Shown: positions 34,550-44,253 of the stretch, one piece after another
How positions within the stretch are numbered: position 1 is the stretch's first letter
Layout of the letters: each line of letters begins with the position of its first letter
NCBI GenBank assembly: GCA_005883765.1
Contig: VBAQ01000006.1
Coordinates: 1-44,478, forward strand
DNA: 44,478 nucleotides
From: Bacteroidota bacterium
Lineage (GTDB): Bacteria; Bacteroidota; Bacteroidia; Chitinophagales; Chitinophagaceae
Direction of reading: 5' to 3'
The notes under the pieces: generated by a model
Told to the model about the DNA's origin: nothing
Databases searched by the model: none
What the model saw: only the letters and a program-made list of their open reading frames with translations
Position numbers and translations under genes: made by a program

Positions 34550-35848
34550 TTACAACTTCAAAAGGAACTTCTTAAGCGAATTATAGTCCACATCCATTTT
34601 AGTCGCGACCTTATATTTATCCATGATCCCCTGGACGGCAGGAGGCAAGGGAATTTTTTCCTCGATCACAGGTTCAACGACATCATAAAATTTTACAGGG
34701 TGTGCGGTTTCAACGAAAATTCCTTTTAAACCAGGATTTTTTTTGAGAAATCGTTCCAGCGACAAATAACCTACTGCACCGTGAGGATCTAAAACGTAAT
34801 GGTACTGTCTGTAAACCTTTTTGATAGTTGCTCTCGTTTCGTCATCGGTAATACTGAAAGCTGATAAGATCCTTTTTAATTCGGAAATATCTTCTTCGAA
34901 AATTTCCAGTATCCGGATAAAATTATTTGGGTCGCCTACATCCATGGCATTCGAGATTGTGGCGATAGTCTTTTTTGGATGGTAATCTCCCGTTTTCAAA
35001 AATTCAGGAACCACATCGTTTACGTTACAGGCGGCAATAAAATGCTGCACCGGCAATCCTGACGCATGAGAGAGGACCGCGGCACAGAGATTTCCAAAAT
35101 TTCCGCTGGGAACAGAAATAACAGGGGGATGTTTTTTATCAGGCCATTGCCTGTATGCAAAAAAATAATAAAACTGTTGCGGCAGCCACCGGGCAATGTT
35201 GATCGAGTTCGCAGAAGTTAAAAATATTTTTTGCTTTACTTCTTTGTCGGCGAATGCCTGCTTTACCAATTGCTGGCAATCATCAAAATTTCCATTAACT
35301 TCTAAAGCATGAATATTTTTTCCCAGGGTGGTCAATTGTTTTTCCTGTACCATACTCACCTTTGCCGAAGGATAGAGAATGACAACGTCCACACCTTTCA
35401 CTTCATAAAAACCGTTGGCAACTGCGCCGCCGGTATCTCCTGAAGTAGCCACAAGCACAACCAGTTTTTCATTCCTTTCCTTTGCGAAATATCCAAGACA
35501 TCGGCTCATGAACCTGGCTCCGACATCTTTAAATGCGAGCGTGGGTCCGTAAAATAATTCAAGCGAATAAATTTTCTCATTCAGTTTTGCAAGAGGGATC
35601 GGGAAATTGATCGTTTCTGAAATAATTTTCCTCAAAATTTTCTCAGGAATAGAATTGCCCACGTAGGGTTGGATGACCTGGTACGCGATTTCTTCATTAC
35701 TCATCTTTTCAATGTTGTGAAAAAATGATGAGTCGAAAACGGGGATGTGTTCAGGAAAATACAAACCCTTGTCCGGCGCCTGTCCATGAATGGCTGCTTC
35801 TTTAAAATCAACTGGCGGCGACTGCCTGTTCAAACTGTAATACTGCAT
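34550..35848 (-). CDS. thrC: Threonine synthase
   Basis: ThrC is the PLP enzyme that converts O-phosphohomoserine to threonine. The 432-residue protein has the PLP lysine K107 in GPTLAFKDVGARFMSRCLGYF, the SGDTGGAVANGFYEVKGVDVVILYPS block (about 136-161), and SVPSGNFGNLCAAVLS (about 249-264) for phosphate binding. It is the final gene of the thrA-thrB-thrC operon. The gap to thrB is 145 bp and contains a TCCCCCTAAGGGGA hairpin (about 35861) and an ATTAATT repeat. Confidence 0.96.
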   Translation of the reverse strand: MQYYSLNRQSPPVDFKEAAIHGQAPDKGLYFPEHIPVFDSSFFHNIEKMSNEEIAYQVIQPYVGNSIPEKILRKIISETINFPIPLAKLNEKIYSLELFYGPTLAFKDVGARFMSRCLGYFAKERNEKLVVLVATSGDTGGAVANGFYEVKGVDVVILYPSAKVSMVQEKQLTTLGKNIHALEVNGNFDDCQQLVKQAFADKEVKQKIFLTSANSINIARWLPQQFYYFFAYRQWPDKKHPPVISVPSGNFGNLCAAVLSHASGLPVQHFIAACNVNDVVPEFLKTGDYHPKKTIATISNAMDVGDPNNFIRILEIFEEDISELKRILSAFSITDDETRATIKKVYRQYHYVLDPHGAVGYLSLERFLKKNPGLKGIFVETAHPVKFYDVVEPVIEEKIPLPPAVQGIMDKYKVATKMDVDYNSLKKFLLKL

Positions 35849-35959: not shown

Positions 35960-35998
35960 CAATAATTATTCATTATTAATTGCTGATTCTTAATTACT
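35960..35998. repeat. ATTAATTATTAAT-type repeat at the 3' end of thrB
   Basis: AATAATTATTCATTATTAAT and TTCTTAATTACTC are of the same family as 2793-2823 and the tract in aroA (26088-26130). It overlaps the thrB stop codon. Confidence 0.5.
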
Positions 35999-36980
35999 CA
36001 CCCGGCATCAACTTTACGCCTGTTTGATTGATAAACGTAACATAAGTTCTAAACTCTACACCAATTTTTTGAAACACATTCTTCATGATGGTTTCAACTT
36101 TCCGTGCAGTTTCTTCTTCCTTGCTCAGCATGAAAATGGATGGTCCGCTTCCTGAAATACCACCGCCCAGTGCTCCTGCCTCTTTTGAATTAATTTTTAC
36201 TTCATCAAAGCCTGGGATCAAAATACTTCTTACCGGCTCAATGATCACATCCTCCAGTGAACGGCCGATAAGTTCGTAGTCGTTTTTCAAAAGACCCGTT
36301 ACGAGCCCGGCGATATTACCCCACTGCATAATGGCACTTTTCAACTGCACTTCCTTGCGAAGAATTTGCCTGGCATCTGAAGTTTTTACTTCTATCTGCG
36401 GATGTACAACGGTGACATGCAATGGCGGCGCTGATAAGGGAATAATGTCTAGGGGAAGAATTGACCTGATCAGCGTGATGCCGCCGTAAATACAGGGAGC
36501 AAGATTATCAGCATGCTTAACTCCACTTGCCACTTTCTCTCCATTCATGGCAAAACGGACAAGATCAGGTTTTGAAAAAATATTTCCGAGCAAATAATTG
36601 GCCGCAACCACGGCTCCTGCCGAACTAGCCGCACTGGAACCAAGACCACTACCCGGTTTTATACTTTTATTGACTAGAACTTCAAATCCGACTTTCTTTT
36701 CATAGGCCTCCTGCAAAGCAATTAAGGCGGCACCAGCCACATTTCTTTCTGGCTCAACAGGAAGATCATAATCATCGGCATGTTTTATTTTTATCACCGG
36801 CTCAGCAAGAAGCCTTACTTCCATCAGGTCCTGCGGATCATTCAAAGCCATGCCCAAAATGTCAAAACCACACACAAGGTTTGCGACCGTTGCGGGAGCT
36901 GAAACTCTTACAACACTCGTATTCCCTAAAGGGGCGTTATTATCTGCACTACTTTTAGAAATATTTTTATCGTCAGGCAT
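35994..36980 (-). CDS. thrB: Homoserine kinase
   Basis: ThrB phosphorylates homoserine with ATP. It is a GHMP kinase with the N-terminal APATVANLVCGFDILGMAL and the ATP loop KPGSGLGSSAASSAGAVVAANYLLG. The C-terminal block is GALGGGISGSGPSIFML. I start at the ATG giving MPDDKNISK (328 residues); a TTG 11 codons upstream is in frame. About 20 residues before VVRVSAPATV are extra compared with typical family members, and the coding strand there contains CCCCTTTAGGG, a small hairpin like other repeats here. It lies 51 bp after thrA. Confidence 0.93.
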   Translation of the reverse strand: MPDDKNISKSSADNNAPLGNTSVVRVSAPATVANLVCGFDILGMALNDPQDLMEVRLLAEPVIKIKHADDYDLPVEPERNVAGAALIALQEAYEKKVGFEVLVNKSIKPGSGLGSSAASSAGAVVAANYLLGNIFSKPDLVRFAMNGEKVASGVKHADNLAPCIYGGITLIRSILPLDIIPLSAPPLHVTVVHPQIEVKTSDARQILRKEVQLKSAIMQWGNIAGLVTGLLKNDYELIGRSLEDVIIEPVRSILIPGFDEVKINSKEAGALGGGISGSGPSIFMLSKEEETARKVETIMKNVFQKIGVEFRTYVTFINQTGVKLMPGE

Positions 36981-37031
36981 TTTCAATTTATCAAGGGTTG
37001 AAACAACTTTCAAACTCCTCCGAAGCTCCCT

Positions 37032-39500
37032 TTACTGAACTCTCGCTGCCCTCATTATGTCCGCAAAAACACCCGACGCAGTCACGTCCGCTCCCGCACC
37101 GGCGCCTTTCACAACAAGAGGTTGTTCCTTGTATCTGTCTGTGTAAAACAATACTACATTATCTTTTCCATACAAATGATAAAGGTCCTGCTCTGGCGAA
37201 ATATGTTGTAGTCCCACAGATGCTTTGACAACGCCATTGGTTGGGGCAGCGTTGCGATAGGAAGCAACGAACTTTAGCTTGCAATTATTTTTTTCCGCCT
37301 CTTGATAAAGTTTCCTGAAATGATCTTCATGCTTCTTCATTTCCGAATAAAAATTCTCGACGCTCCCCTCCATACATGACGCGGGCATGAATGAGTTGTT
37401 TGCAATATCATCCATCTCTATTTTTTCGCCGGCCTCACGCGCCAGGATCATGATCTTTCTCATCACATCTTTACCGCTCAGGTCAAGTCGTGGATCGGGT
37501 TCAGTGTAGCCTTCATCCTGTGCCTGTTTGACGACGTCTGCAAAAAGTCTTTTGCCGTCATAATTGTTAAAAACGAAATTCAATGTTCCGCTCAGCACCG
37601 CCTCAATGCTTTGAACCTTATCTCCACTCCGCAGGAGGTCAGTCAATGTGCCAATTACCGGCAGACCAGCGCCCACATTTGTCTCAAATAGAAAACTTGC
37701 ATTGAATTCGTTGGCGAGTTCTTTTAATATTTTATAATGACCATAAGAAGATGAACAGGCGATCTTGTTGCAAGCTACTACTGACACCACTTTCTGAAGC
37801 AAACCTTCATACACCTCAGCCACCTTGTCGCTGGCCGTTACATCAACAAAAACGGAATTGCGAAGGTTTTTCTCAACAATAGCATCAGCGAACTGACGAA
37901 TGTCGGAGTTATTCCCATTGCTTAATTCGTTCTCCCAGTCAGAAAGGTCAATGCCCTCATTTTTAACGATCGATTTTTTGCTGTTGATAATTCCTACCAC
38001 GCGAACCTGCAAGCGCAGATGATCACGTAAAAATTTTTGCTGCTGATGCAGCTGCCTTAACAATTTACTGCCAACATTGCCAGCCCCCGCAATAAAAATA
38101 TTGATCTGTTTGTAGCTGGTCTCAAAAAATTCCTCGTGCAAAACATTGATCGCTTTGCGAACATCAGCAGTACTGATGACCGCTGAAATATTTCGCTCCG
38201 AGGAACCCTGTGCAATGGCTCGAACATTCACACCATTCTTTCCCAAGGCACCAAACATTTTTCCACTGATGCCGGGATGGCTTTTCATATGATCGCCAAC
38301 CAAAGCCACTATCGAAAGATCTTTTTCGACGACCAGGGGTTCCACCCGCAGCATGGCTATCTCACCTGCAAAAGCAAGGTCGATCACTTTCTTCGCATTG
38401 TCTGCATTGATGGCATCAACGCCTACACAAATAGAATGTTCTGAGGACCCTTGTGTGATAAGAATTACATTGATCGATGCGCCCGATAAGGACTCGAACA
38501 ATCTCTTTGAGAATCCAGGAACGCCAACCATGCCGCTTCCCTCCAGGCTGAGCAAGGCAACATTGTTAATGCTTGAGATACCACGAATAATACTTCCATC
38601 ATTTTCTGCATCATTCTTAATTACAGTGCCATGCTCATCTTTTGCAAAGGTATTTTTGATCCAGATCGGAATATTTTTGCTTAAGACCGGCTGGATCGTA
38701 GGAGGATAAATGACCTTTGCACCAAAGTGCGAAAGTTCCATTGCTTCCTGGTAAGAAATAGAAGAAATGATCTTTGCATTGGCCACCCAGCGCGGATCTG
38801 CGGTCATCATGCCGCTCACATCGGTCCAAATTTCCAGGGAAGAGGCATTGATAGCCGCAGCAAAAATAGCCGCTGTGTAATCCGATCCCCCTCTGCCTAG
38901 CGTGGTCGTAATATTCTTCGAGTCAGAGGCGATGAAACCCGGTACCAGAAAAAGTTTTTCATCTGATTGACCGATCAAATGATGAATATTCTCATTAGTA
39001 GCCGGAAAATTGACATTAGCTGTACCGAAGTCAGAATTGGTCTTGATCGCCTCCTGGCTGTCAATCCATTTCGCCGCGATGCCTTTTGCAGTCAGCGCAG
39101 CAGTGATGATATGGGACGAAAACAATTCACCGTAGCTCAATAATTTGTCAATAGTTCTTGGTGAAAGTTCATTCAATAAAAAAATACCATTACATAGATC
39201 CTCAATTTCGTTACACATTTTCTTTACAAGGCTTAACAAAGCGCTTTGATGTTGTATGGGGATGAGTTCCTTTACCGTTGTAATGTGACGCTGTTCTATT
39301 TCCTGTAATTTGTCTTTGTAGCCTTCATTTCCCGCTGCCGCCAGCTTGCCGCATTCGAGTAACGCATCTGTTGTTCCTCCTAAGGCAGAAATAACCACGA
39401 CCAGCGATTCTTCGTTTAGTTTTTCCTTTATAATGTCGATCACTTTTTCTATTATCTCAGTACTGGCTACTGATGTGCCTCCGAATTTTAATACTTTCAT
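37032..39500 (-). CDS. thrA: Bifunctional aspartate kinase / homoserine dehydrogenase
   Basis: The 822-residue fusion covers the first and third steps from aspartate towards threonine. Residues about 1-295 form aspartate kinase (KFGGTSVAS at 4-12, ATTLGRGGSDYTAA about 204-217, WTDVSGMMTADPR about 231-243). Residues about 310-460 hold two ACT regulatory domains. Residues about 470-820 form homoserine dehydrogenase (FIAGAGNVGSKLL near 466-478, GTLNFVFNNYDG, DPRLDLSGKDVMRKIMILAR). Threonine feedback through the ACT domains is known for this type. It is the first operon gene, preceded by a leader with a Thr-rich peptide and attenuator hairpin. Confidence 0.96.
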   Translation of the reverse strand: MKVLKFGGTSVASTEIIEKVIDIIKEKLNEESLVVVISALGGTTDALLECGKLAAAGNEGYKDKLQEIEQRHITTVKELIPIQHQSALLSLVKKMCNEIEDLCNGIFLLNELSPRTIDKLLSYGELFSSHIITAALTAKGIAAKWIDSQEAIKTNSDFGTANVNFPATNENIHHLIGQSDEKLFLVPGFIASDSKNITTTLGRGGSDYTAAIFAAAINASSLEIWTDVSGMMTADPRWVANAKIISSISYQEAMELSHFGAKVIYPPTIQPVLSKNIPIWIKNTFAKDEHGTVIKNDAENDGSIIRGISSINNVALLSLEGSGMVGVPGFSKRLFESLSGASINVILITQGSSEHSICVGVDAINADNAKKVIDLAFAGEIAMLRVEPLVVEKDLSIVALVGDHMKSHPGISGKMFGALGKNGVNVRAIAQGSSERNISAVISTADVRKAINVLHEEFFETSYKQINIFIAGAGNVGSKLLRQLHQQQKFLRDHLRLQVRVVGIINSKKSIVKNEGIDLSDWENELSNGNNSDIRQFADAIVEKNLRNSVFVDVTASDKVAEVYEGLLQKVVSVVACNKIACSSSYGHYKILKELANEFNASFLFETNVGAGLPVIGTLTDLLRSGDKVQSIEAVLSGTLNFVFNNYDGKRLFADVVKQAQDEGYTEPDPRLDLSGKDVMRKIMILAREAGEKIEMDDIANNSFMPASCMEGSVENFYSEMKKHEDHFRKLYQEAEKNNCKLKFVASYRNAAPTNGVVKASVGLQHISPEQDLYHLYGKDNVVLFYTDRYKEQPLVVKGAGAGADVTASGVFADIMRAARVQ

Positions 39501-39582
39501 GTTTGCTCCTATCTCCGCATCGCGAAGAGTTGAATGTTAGAAAAATATGGTGCAATATATTTTACCTTTTAAAATTTCCGGG

Positions 39583-39630
39583 AATAAATAAAAACCTTTC
39601 TTTTTTATTCATTCCTTCCGAAGAAGAAAG
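39583..39630 (-). terminator. Putative attenuator terminator of the thr operon
   Basis: On the minus strand CTTTCTT (39630-39624) pairs with AAGAAAG (39602-39596) around a 21-base loop that holds a small CTT-CGG-AAG hairpin. It is followed by GTTTTTATTTATT. It lies between the Thr-rich leader peptide and thrA. The stem is AT-rich and only 7 bp, so strength is uncertain. A separate CCCGC/GCGGG stem (minus strand, about 39656-39669) overlaps the end of the leader reading frame and could be part of the alternative fold. Confidence 0.55.
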
Positions 39631-39648
39631 CCTGGCATAATATGGTTA

Positions 39649-39747
39649 TTACAATCCCGCGGGTTGCGGGGTTGTTGTAGTTGTAGTGAAGCTGACCGTT
39701 GGTGCCGCTACGAAATGAGAAGTGATATGTGTGGGATCGAATATCAT
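39649..39747 (-). CDS. thrL: Threonine operon leader peptide
   Basis: A 32-residue ORF starts ATG 39747 and ends TAA 39649. It reads MIFDPTHITSHFVAAPTVSF, then six consecutive threonine codons (residues 21-26; ACT ACA ACT ACA ACA ACC), then PQPAGL. Threonine accounts for 9 of 32 residues. It lies 148 bp before thrA on the same strand and is followed by a terminator-like hairpin, the layout of a transcription attenuator: scarcity of charged tRNA-Thr would stall ribosomes on the Thr run and favour read-through. The symbol is used by analogy with the enterobacterial leader; there is no expected sequence homology. Confidence 0.75.
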   Translation of the reverse strand: MIFDPTHITSHFVAAPTVSFTTTTTTPQPAGL

Positions 39748-39758
39748 TGATCGGTGAG

Positions 39759-39789
39759 CCAAGATAAAAACCAATCGGTTAAAAACAAA
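39759..39789 (-). promoter_or_regulatory. Probable promoter of the thr operon
   Basis: On the minus strand TTTG (39789-39786), exactly 19 bases, then TATCTTGG (39766-39759), matching the Bacteroidota consensus TTTG-N19-TAnnTTTG at all but one base. Transcription would begin near 39752, giving the leader peptide a very short 5' UTR of only several bases. Confidence 0.5.
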
Positions 39790-43339: not shown

Positions 43340-43550
43340 ATTAAATGAGTTTACTATCAGTAACGAGCAAATATGGACCTTATGACTAGTTTACAACGTA
43401 AAAGATTAATTTTTGTTTTGCCAAAGCTATTTCAATAAAGATTTCCTTGAGGATTAAAAATATCTGTGCCACGGATGGCCTAGAAAAAGACAGGCAATAT
43501 GCAAGAAAAACCCTTCCTGTGAAAATCCGCGTCTGACGGATATCAGTCTG

Positions 43551-43882
43551 CTTGTGTCTCCGCTGAAGCTTCGGCGACACGCGGACGGCGGGCGAACGAA
43601 CCTTCCTGAAAATAAAAAAAGTTGACCGCGTCCACCGTAGCCCGCCCGAAATAATGAATAACGCCGAGAAAAAGGGAAGCCCGCCTTCGTTAAAACTTGT
43701 GCCTCCGCTGAAGCTTCGGCGACCCGCGGACCGCGGGCGAACGAACCTTCCTGAAAATAAAAAAAGTGGACCGTGTCCACCGTAGCCCGCGCAATTATCA
43801 ACTGCAACAAAAAAGCGAAGCCCGCCGTCGCTAAAGCTTGTGCCTCCGCTGAAGCTTCAGCGACACGCGGATGGCGGGCGGA
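43551..43882. repeat. Tandem array of a 141-145 bp unit abutting the tmRNA 3' end
   Basis: Units begin CTTGTGYCTCCGCTGAAGCT at 43551, 43696 and 43837, giving periods of 145 and 141 bp. The third copy stops at 43882, the base next to the tmRNA end. Each full unit contains the stem CTCCGCTGAAGCTTCGGCG, GGGCGAACGAACCTTCCTG, an A-rich tract and a GTGGACCGTGTCCAC-like palindrome. Copies 1 and 2 differ at scattered positions. A reading frame through this array (43454-43915, minus) is repeat-derived and not counted as a gene. The 43340-43550 stretch holds no gene. Confidence 0.85.
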
Positions 43883-44253
43883 GGTGGAGGTGACCGGAAT
43901 CGAACCGGTGTCCAAACATATTCTCCAAAAGCTTTCTACATGCTTATTTTATTTTGTGTTGTCAAAAACTGACTGGGAATAAACAACCGATCAATTTCTT
44001 AGCTGCATGTGTCTTTTGTTATCAGCACAGCCTACGATAACAGCATCCTGTTTTATTTTTGATTGGGCGGAGGAGCTGGCAACAGGACTGCCTTCTCTCT
44101 CGGCCATAATGACTACCTAATTACTAATTAAGCAGCCATGGCAAATTGTGTATTGCCATTTGTGTTTTTCGTATTCAGATTATCGGGCTAATTACGCAAC
44201 GCCCGGCATGCTTACACTTTCAAAGATCTACGCTGTCAAAACCAAGCACCCCC
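43883..44253 (-). ncRNA. ssrA: Transfer-messenger RNA
   Basis: tmRNA rescues stalled ribosomes and tags incomplete proteins for degradation. The 5' end GGGGGTG (44253-44247) pairs with CACCTCC (43892-43886), including a G3-U70 wobble, the alanine identity signal. The T-arm ACCGG-TTCGATT-CCGGT lies next to it. The tag frame ends at TAA 44130-44128 and reads ...NGNTQFAMAA, with a hydrophobic AA end as expected. The resume codon is not fixed from sequence alone. The genome encodes CC but not the final A of CCA. It is a standard one-piece tmRNA of about 371 nt. Confidence 0.95.

Follow-up and report, generated by a model that had tools for sequence, protein, structure and literature searches.

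A threonine-rich leader peptide and a conserved hairpin-box RNA element upstream of thrA in Chitinophagaceae and other Bacteroidota

The leader region of the thr operon

The stretch of DNA analysed here, hereafter the window, is 44,478 nt of contig VBAQ01000006.1 of a Chitinophagaceae bacterium (Bacteroidota), in which Pfam matches place a leader region between ppc on the plus strand and thrA on the minus strand, followed by thrA, the GHMP kinase gene thrB and the threonine synthase gene thrC (Table 1). A preliminary description had located a Thr operon attenuator in this interval on the thrA strand, and its account of the coding part was borne out: the 32-residue leader ORF, the six consecutive Thr codons and, on the minus strand upstream of the ORF, the promoter-like pair TTTG-N19-TATCTTGG at 39789-39759 are all present, and no other run of at least five Thr codons turns up when the window is read in all six frames. 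The two promoter elements are termed -33-like and -7-like after the Bacteroidota promoter consensus. Elsewhere in the window, a tmRNA gene (Rfam RF00023) lies at 43882-44253 on the minus strand and, beside it at 43454-43915 of the same strand, overlapping ORFs carry the protein-level repeat PRVAEASAEAQ, which may be a short DNA repeat.

Table 1. Features of the thr leader region and of the operon genes in the window
Feature	Position	Strand	Remarks
-33-like promoter element, TTTG	39786..39789	-	sequence
-7-like promoter element, TATCTTGG	39759..39766	-	11 nt 5′ of the leader start codon
Leader peptide ORF, MIFDPTHITSHFVAAPTVSFTTTTTTPQPAGL	39747-39649	-	32 codons, 32 aa; sequence
Box 1, CATATCA	39723..39729	-	18 nt 3′ of the leader start codon
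Six consecutive Thr codons, ACT ACA ACT ACA ACA ACC	39687-39670	-	sequence
Hairpin HP1, ACAA-C-CCCGC-AACCC-GCGGG-A-TTGT	39651..39675	-	fold and alignment
Leader stop codon, TAA	39649..39651	-	sequence
Box 2, CATATTA	39638..39644	-	6 nt 3′ of HP1
Hairpin HP2, TTTCTTC-TTCG-GAAGGAA	39612..39629	-	7 bp; hairpin of varying sequence roughly here in many relatives
A/T-rich hairpin containing the T-rich tract	39581..39615	-	14 bp; folds; overlaps HP2 by 4 nt
thrA, aspartokinase-homoserine dehydrogenase	37032..39500	-	Pfam
thrB, GHMP-family kinase	35994..37013	-	Pfam; homoserine kinase name from operon place
thrC, threonine synthase	34550..35848	-	Pfam Thr_synth_N and PALP

The window was compared with 80 thrA loci, the best 80 of a longer list and most of them labelled Chitinophagaceae or Bacteroidetes, and 77 of the 80 carry a shared RNA element at the end of a Thr/Ile-rich leader ORF before thrA. 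The three loci without it are L039, L041 and L059. In L039 (604-1917) thrA stands directly behind a threonine dehydratase gene (Pfam), and in L041, as in L138-L141 of family f32, it stands behind a threonine dehydratase-like gene as judged by eye; the Thr leader is absent from all of these. The counts below refer to a set of 78 sequences, comprising the window, its genus relative G001 and 76 of the 80 loci, the three loci without the element being left out together with L018, which has the element and was dropped by the distance filter of the script.

The Thr leader peptide is real and conserved in many relatives. Over the 78 sequences, Thr averages 5.9 (minimum 2) and Ile 2.3 among the last 12 leader codons, and all four Thr codons are used (ACA 179, ACC 151, ACT 108 and ACG 23). 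In 76 of the 78 a start codon (35 ATG, 34 GTG and 7 TTG) precedes the stop at a distance of 24-38 codons, compared with 39 of 156 at the corresponding places of the two remaining frames, and in G001 it falls at the place aligned with the leader start of the window. The -7 box (at least 6 of 8 matching positions within 45 nt upstream of the leader) is recognisable in 54 of 76 sequences versus 31% of shuffles, and box 1 (at least 6 of 7) in 58 of 76 versus 23% of shuffles, 36 of the 58 at exactly 18 nt. The comparison with relatives that the preliminary description had called for thus recovered the Thr/Ile run, the start codon position, the promoter box and the hairpin at the stop codon, and it also qualified two presumed oddities. 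The run is indeed free of Ile over the last 12 codons in the window, whereas relatives mix Thr and Ile there (at least one Ile in 73 of 78); and the 5′ UTR is indeed short, 11 nt from the -7 box to the leader start, which is however no peculiarity, as the median is 16 nt (interquartile range 11-17) in the 54 of 76 sequences with a recognisable box.

Additionally, the leaders of the 78-sequence set are C-rich and G-poor (C 30.3%, G 11.6%), and the RNA from box 2 to thrA holds 11.2% G versus 18.1% in front of 238 long ORFs picked mechanically. The distance from the leader stop to the thrA start has a median of 100 nt, with the middle 80% at 91-120 and a range of 79-151. A Shine-Dalgarno-like sequence precedes the leader ORF in one of 76 leaders and is rare before thrA as well (5 of 76). 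In the window, a small hairpin (39512-39528) lies directly 5′ of the AGGAG (39506-39510) preceding thrA, and its counterpart in G001 differs in sequence and still pairs.

A conserved RNA element at the leader end

The shared element consists, in this order, of the hairpin HP1, the box CATATYA (box 2) and the hairpin HP2. In most of the 77 loci HP1 reads ACAACCC-GTTAA-GGGTTGT or is closely similar to it, and the loop contains the stop codon. In the window, the final Thr codons extend into the 5′ arm of HP1, and the last base of the hairpin doubles as the first of the stop codon, which accordingly sits at the hairpin base and not in the loop; despite this shift, the spacing from HP1 to box 2 is nearly the same (6 nt in the window, 7 nt in L021). 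G001 shows by eye an arrangement like that of the window with a weaker HP1. Over the 78 sequences HP1 has a mean stability of -9.3 kcal/mol, and it is this hairpin at the stop codon, upstream of the 7-bp hairpin singled out in the preliminary description, that is best conserved among relatives.

In alignment A2, which holds the window and 70 of the 77 loci (L017, L023, L025, L031, L038, L052 and L082 were excluded for offset hairpins), 89.2% of the HP1 cells are paired, versus 32-48% when the hairpin is slid. A double change from C-G to U-A occurs in 10 of 68 distinct sequences; pairs showing a double change (2) and further pair types (5) are no more numerous in A2 than in shuffles, and RNAalifold recovered three of the seven HP1 pairs. 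Therefore, the conservation of HP1 is as much one of sequence as of covariation. Box 2 is matched at 6 of 7 positions or better in 76 of the 78 sequences versus 8.5% of shuffles. HP2 is weak in the family, with a mean of -2.2 kcal/mol versus -0.9 in mononucleotide shuffles, and in 61 of 78 sequences it beats the mean of the shuffles made from that sequence. The 7-bp hairpin of the preliminary description is the HP2 of the window; it is absent from the minimum-energy folds, in which the competing A/T-rich hairpin (39615-39581) is preferred. The latter is the sole perfect stem of at least 10 bp behind the leader stop among the 78 sequences, and by eye G001 has an imperfect counterpart.

The element is restricted to thrA. 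With a model of it, R1 (cut-off E 0.001 or better; for thrA, E 1e-150 or better), 84 of 147 family genomes gave a match and 98 had thrA, and 80 of the 85 matches lie upstream of thrA on the same strand, 78 of them within 260 nt, and the other two belong to partial thrA matches. The remaining matches fall in genomes without thrA at the cut-off (4 of 85) or elsewhere in a genome with thrA (1 of 85); in G013, which has no thrA at the cut-off, the match lies upstream of a thrA-like ORF. Among the 98 thrA genomes, 80 have a match upstream and 18 do not, yet in G001 and G007, where R1 gave none upstream of thrA, the element is present by eye. In 29 relatives R1 gave 24 matches, 11 upstream of thrA and 13 chance-like, and an exact pattern gave eight matches in 118 genomes, seven of them upstream of thrA, with two for a reversed control pattern; neither R1 in the 29 relatives nor the exact pattern in the 118 genomes found the element in other operons.

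In the wider phylum, 75 thrA upstream regions (74 distinct) were covered by a scripted scan and 31 were read as DNA. The Thr codons run into such a hairpin in 26 of 28 readable loci of family f16, some with only one or two Thr codons, and in 11 of 26 of family f32; these counts were made by reading, and of 30 loci in each family two (f16) and four (f32) had no script-found thrA start. Ten aligned f32 sequences show no variation in HP1 or in the first part of box 2, and HP2 varies in sequence at a nearly constant position. HP1 and box 2-like boxes are also present in other families.

Terminators and alternative pairings behind the leaders

The preliminary description had read the 7-bp hairpin and the T-rich tract behind it as a terminator. 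However, the tract (39596-39586) begins 15 nt after the hairpin, which therefore is not a canonical terminator, and two scans called none behind the leader in the window. Behind the stop codon, the terminator rule was passed by 2 of the 78 Thr leaders, compared with 2.3% of mononucleotide shuffles, in test regions that start at the stop codon and thus cut the HP1 5′ arm in most sequences and leave HP1 uncallable. By the same rule, an intrinsic terminator stands behind all 14 His leaders and all 11 Phe leaders of the 29 relatives, with scores of 18.1-27.8, these being 14 of 16 His loci and 11 of 15 Phe loci after exclusion of those without a script-found leader; 11 of the 14 His leaders and nine of the 11 Phe leaders are in genomes with the Thr element. 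The genome of the window itself has a His leader, MKQRIHIHHHHTCL, which is one of the 14 and is followed by an intrinsic terminator and hisG (L254, G000:C257), and a Phe-rich leader followed by an intrinsic terminator and a prephenate dehydratase gene (L273, G000:C303; read separately). The Thr leader of the window is of a type without a separate intrinsic terminator. Among seven other Bacteroidota Thr-leader loci, L144, L150, L152 and L159 have a strong terminator and L143, L148 and L149 fail the rule. Therefore, there are at least two types of Thr leader in the phylum.

Antiterminator (2:3) pairing showed no excess over swapped controls except for the arms of HP1 (p = 1.4e-5), in a test that is insensitive where both partners are invariant. 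The idea that the thrA start site is sequestered was rejected as well, as leader parts paired with the start region no more than swapped controls did; pairing of the stretch from box 2 to HP2 with the thrA start region was even weaker than in swapped controls, likewise in f16. In f32 (n = 11), the test for pairing of the HP1 3′ arm with RNA behind box 2 gave p = 0.03. A subgroup of f16 (L209, L210 and L213, for example) has by eye an HP2 arm, TTGTAAT, complementary to Thr/Ile codons of the leader, and in L209, L210, L213, L214, L219 and L220 the HP2 arms repeat or complement the leader codons ATTACAA, which could be an alternative pairing; an f16-wide test of pairing between HP2 arm and leader codons gave p = 0.43. 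Of the attenuator first proposed, the conserved Thr-rich leader peptide stands, and the terminator of the enterobacterial model is not supported.

Proposed regulation, rival explanations and known systems

Based on these findings, we propose, with a probability of slightly under one half (about 0.47), that the element is a regulatory leader of the thr operon which combines sensing by the ribosome, a pause at HP1 and box 2, and an output of the Rho type. The parts differ in strength: ribosome-mediated sensing of charged tRNA-Thr/Ile is very probable, and HP1 and the box as a pause module, with an output possibly by Rho, is a more tentative proposal. Sensing, pausing and factor-dependent termination are read from the anatomy of the element, from which we infer the stalling, the pausing, the role of Rho and the direction of regulation. 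The ribosome would translate the 32-codon leader and, where charged tRNA-Thr, and in relatives tRNA-Ile too, runs low, would stall on the Thr codons before or over the HP1 5′ arm, whereas with plentiful Thr it would enter and melt HP1, stop at the stop codon inside HP1 or at its base, and depart. HP1 and box 2 occupy the place that the 1:2 pause hairpin takes in a classical attenuator, and their most likely role is to make RNA polymerase pause until the ribosome has caught up. Once the ribosome had gone, the leader, rich in C and poor in G, would be exposed together with the G-poor stretch between it and thrA, and transcription would most likely end by Rho or another factor before thrA or early in it, while a stalled ribosome would cover the leader RNA and thrA would be expressed.

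In hairpin-stabilised pauses the RNA ends some 10-11 nt downstream of the hairpin; behind HP1 this point would presumably fall in box 2. The spacing of HP1 and box 2 is kept despite the moved stop codon, as a hairpin-dependent pause would need. The sequence conservation of HP1 and box 2 is greater than pausing alone needs. RNA rich in C and poor in G points to Rho only weakly, and in the leader this composition is partly expected because Thr codons are themselves C-rich and G-poor. In a more general form, it is a fair possibility, short of probable, that several Bacteroidota families use a thrA-specific attenuator without a separate terminator, in which the leader ORF terminates within a hairpin that, together with CATATYA at an almost constant distance downstream, pauses the polymerase or recruits a factor, and the position of the ribosome directly decides on termination, beside the terminator-type His and Phe attenuators of the same cell.

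The rival nearest to this proposal is that HP1 itself is a weak intrinsic terminator that a stalled ribosome would block sterically because the Thr codons form the HP1 5′ arm; no antiterminator would then be needed, which would account for the missing alternative pairing. HP1 is stable, and with HP1 included the terminator rule was passed by 17 of the 78 sequences, in 16 cases at HP1 (scores 10.7-15.2), as it was by three of 11 Thr leaders from relatives and the window, all at HP1 (L096, L098 and L102; scores up to 16.1), and by 8 of 43 f15, f16 and f32 loci with HP1 within the scanned region, seven of them at HP1. However, these passes rely on a shortened stem, the scores in the first two sets (10.7-16.1) lie below the lowest His or Phe score, the window itself fails the rule even with HP1 included, and T residues average 3.0 in the 8 nt that follow the full HP1 versus 2.6 further on, reaching five or more in 2 of 78; additionally, HP1 would stay unblocked if the ribosome stalled at the first Thr codons, and we consider this explanation unlikely. 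The attenuator of the classical kind put forward in the preliminary description, with its terminator placed at 39629-39583, has in its favour that HP2 of the window overlaps the A/T-rich hairpin with the T-rich tract and that G001 looks similar, but it is very improbable in view of the two negative scans, the rarity of passes behind the stop codon (7 of 78 even under a looser rule, with a mean score of 0.56 versus 0.31 in shuffles) and the lack of an Rfam leader match.

Two further explanations dispense with control of transcription by the leader ribosome. Translation of the leader could act on mRNA stability or on how accessible the thrA start site is, not on transcription, which would agree with the fairly even distance from the leader stop to thrA and with the absence of an ordinary terminator; we hold this to be unlikely, as leader parts and the thrA start pair no more than in the swapped control, although that control is blind to invariant parts. 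Alternatively, boxes and hairpins could be the binding site of an RNA- or DNA-binding regulator, with the peptide secondary, and here the twofold occurrence of CATATYA, 18 nt after the start codon and again after HP1, the finding that box 1 is not tied to one frame (11 of 58 outside frame 0) and the strong sequence conservation from HP1 through the linker to the box are all in keeping. A site for protein only, however, would not need a Thr/Ile run kept with mixed synonymous codons, and about 23% of shuffles match box 1 as well, so that this explanation is improbable.

If control by the leader peptide as proposed works, it would imply coupled transcription and translation in these bacteria, in which a Shine-Dalgarno sequence is mostly missing from the Thr leader ORFs and the promoter box lies near. 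A clean comparison would also be possible, as one genome apparently holds terminator-type His and Phe leaders and another, conserved module for Thr.

Ribosome-mediated control of amino-acid operons by attenuation is known chiefly from leaders with intrinsic terminators, and the enterobacterial threonine leader has a Thr/Ile codon run with a hairpin over the regulatory codons. The leader described here resembles that family (Thr_leader, RF00506) in its short ORF with a Thr/Ile run before an aspartokinase-homoserine dehydrogenase operon and in a hairpin, here HP1, overlapping the regulatory codons, and differs from it in that no ordinary terminator and no antiterminator were found. The window matched no Rfam leader family, nor a T-box, and among six loci searched L021, L125 and L134 gave no Thr_leader match, while L152 and L144, of another Bacteroidota family, gave matches (E 0.0018 and 0.024) below the gathering score. 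TnaC and MgtL are Rho-dependent leader peptides, and the likeness to them would be that the position of the ribosome on the leader ORF decides on Rho access; the difference would be that the signal here is a codon run for the product of the operon itself and that Rho dependence is putative. Another leader of the phylum, Bacteroid-trp, is a Trp attenuator. Its motif (RF01692) is a listed cis-regulatory RNA of Bacteroidetes (PMC2864571); the window, L021, L125 and L134 gave no match to this family.

In Flavobacterium psychrophilum, leader-peptide attenuation has been proposed upstream of amino-acid operons, and structured 5′ elements are named upstream of pheA and hisG; the section concerned names neither a Thr leader nor a type without terminator, and neither threonine nor thrA appears anywhere in the main text (PMC9723704). 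The authors of another study state that, before their own finding in Firmicutes, leader-peptide systems were known to them from Proteobacteria and Actinobacteria and otherwise from the ermC leader alone, and the main text of that study contains neither bacteroid nor thrA (PMC2965389); thrA is likewise absent from the text of two further papers (PMC7366714 and PMC4833913). In the open-licence literature searched, no description of an HP1-box 2-HP2 element was found. The closest companions of the Thr leader are the His and Phe leaders of its relatives and of its own genome, with which it shares a leader peptide bearing a run of the regulated amino acid and from which it differs in that they have strong intrinsic terminators behind them. 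The leader is best read as a variant of leader-peptide attenuation, in which the new feature is a conserved RNA module in place of the ordinary terminator.
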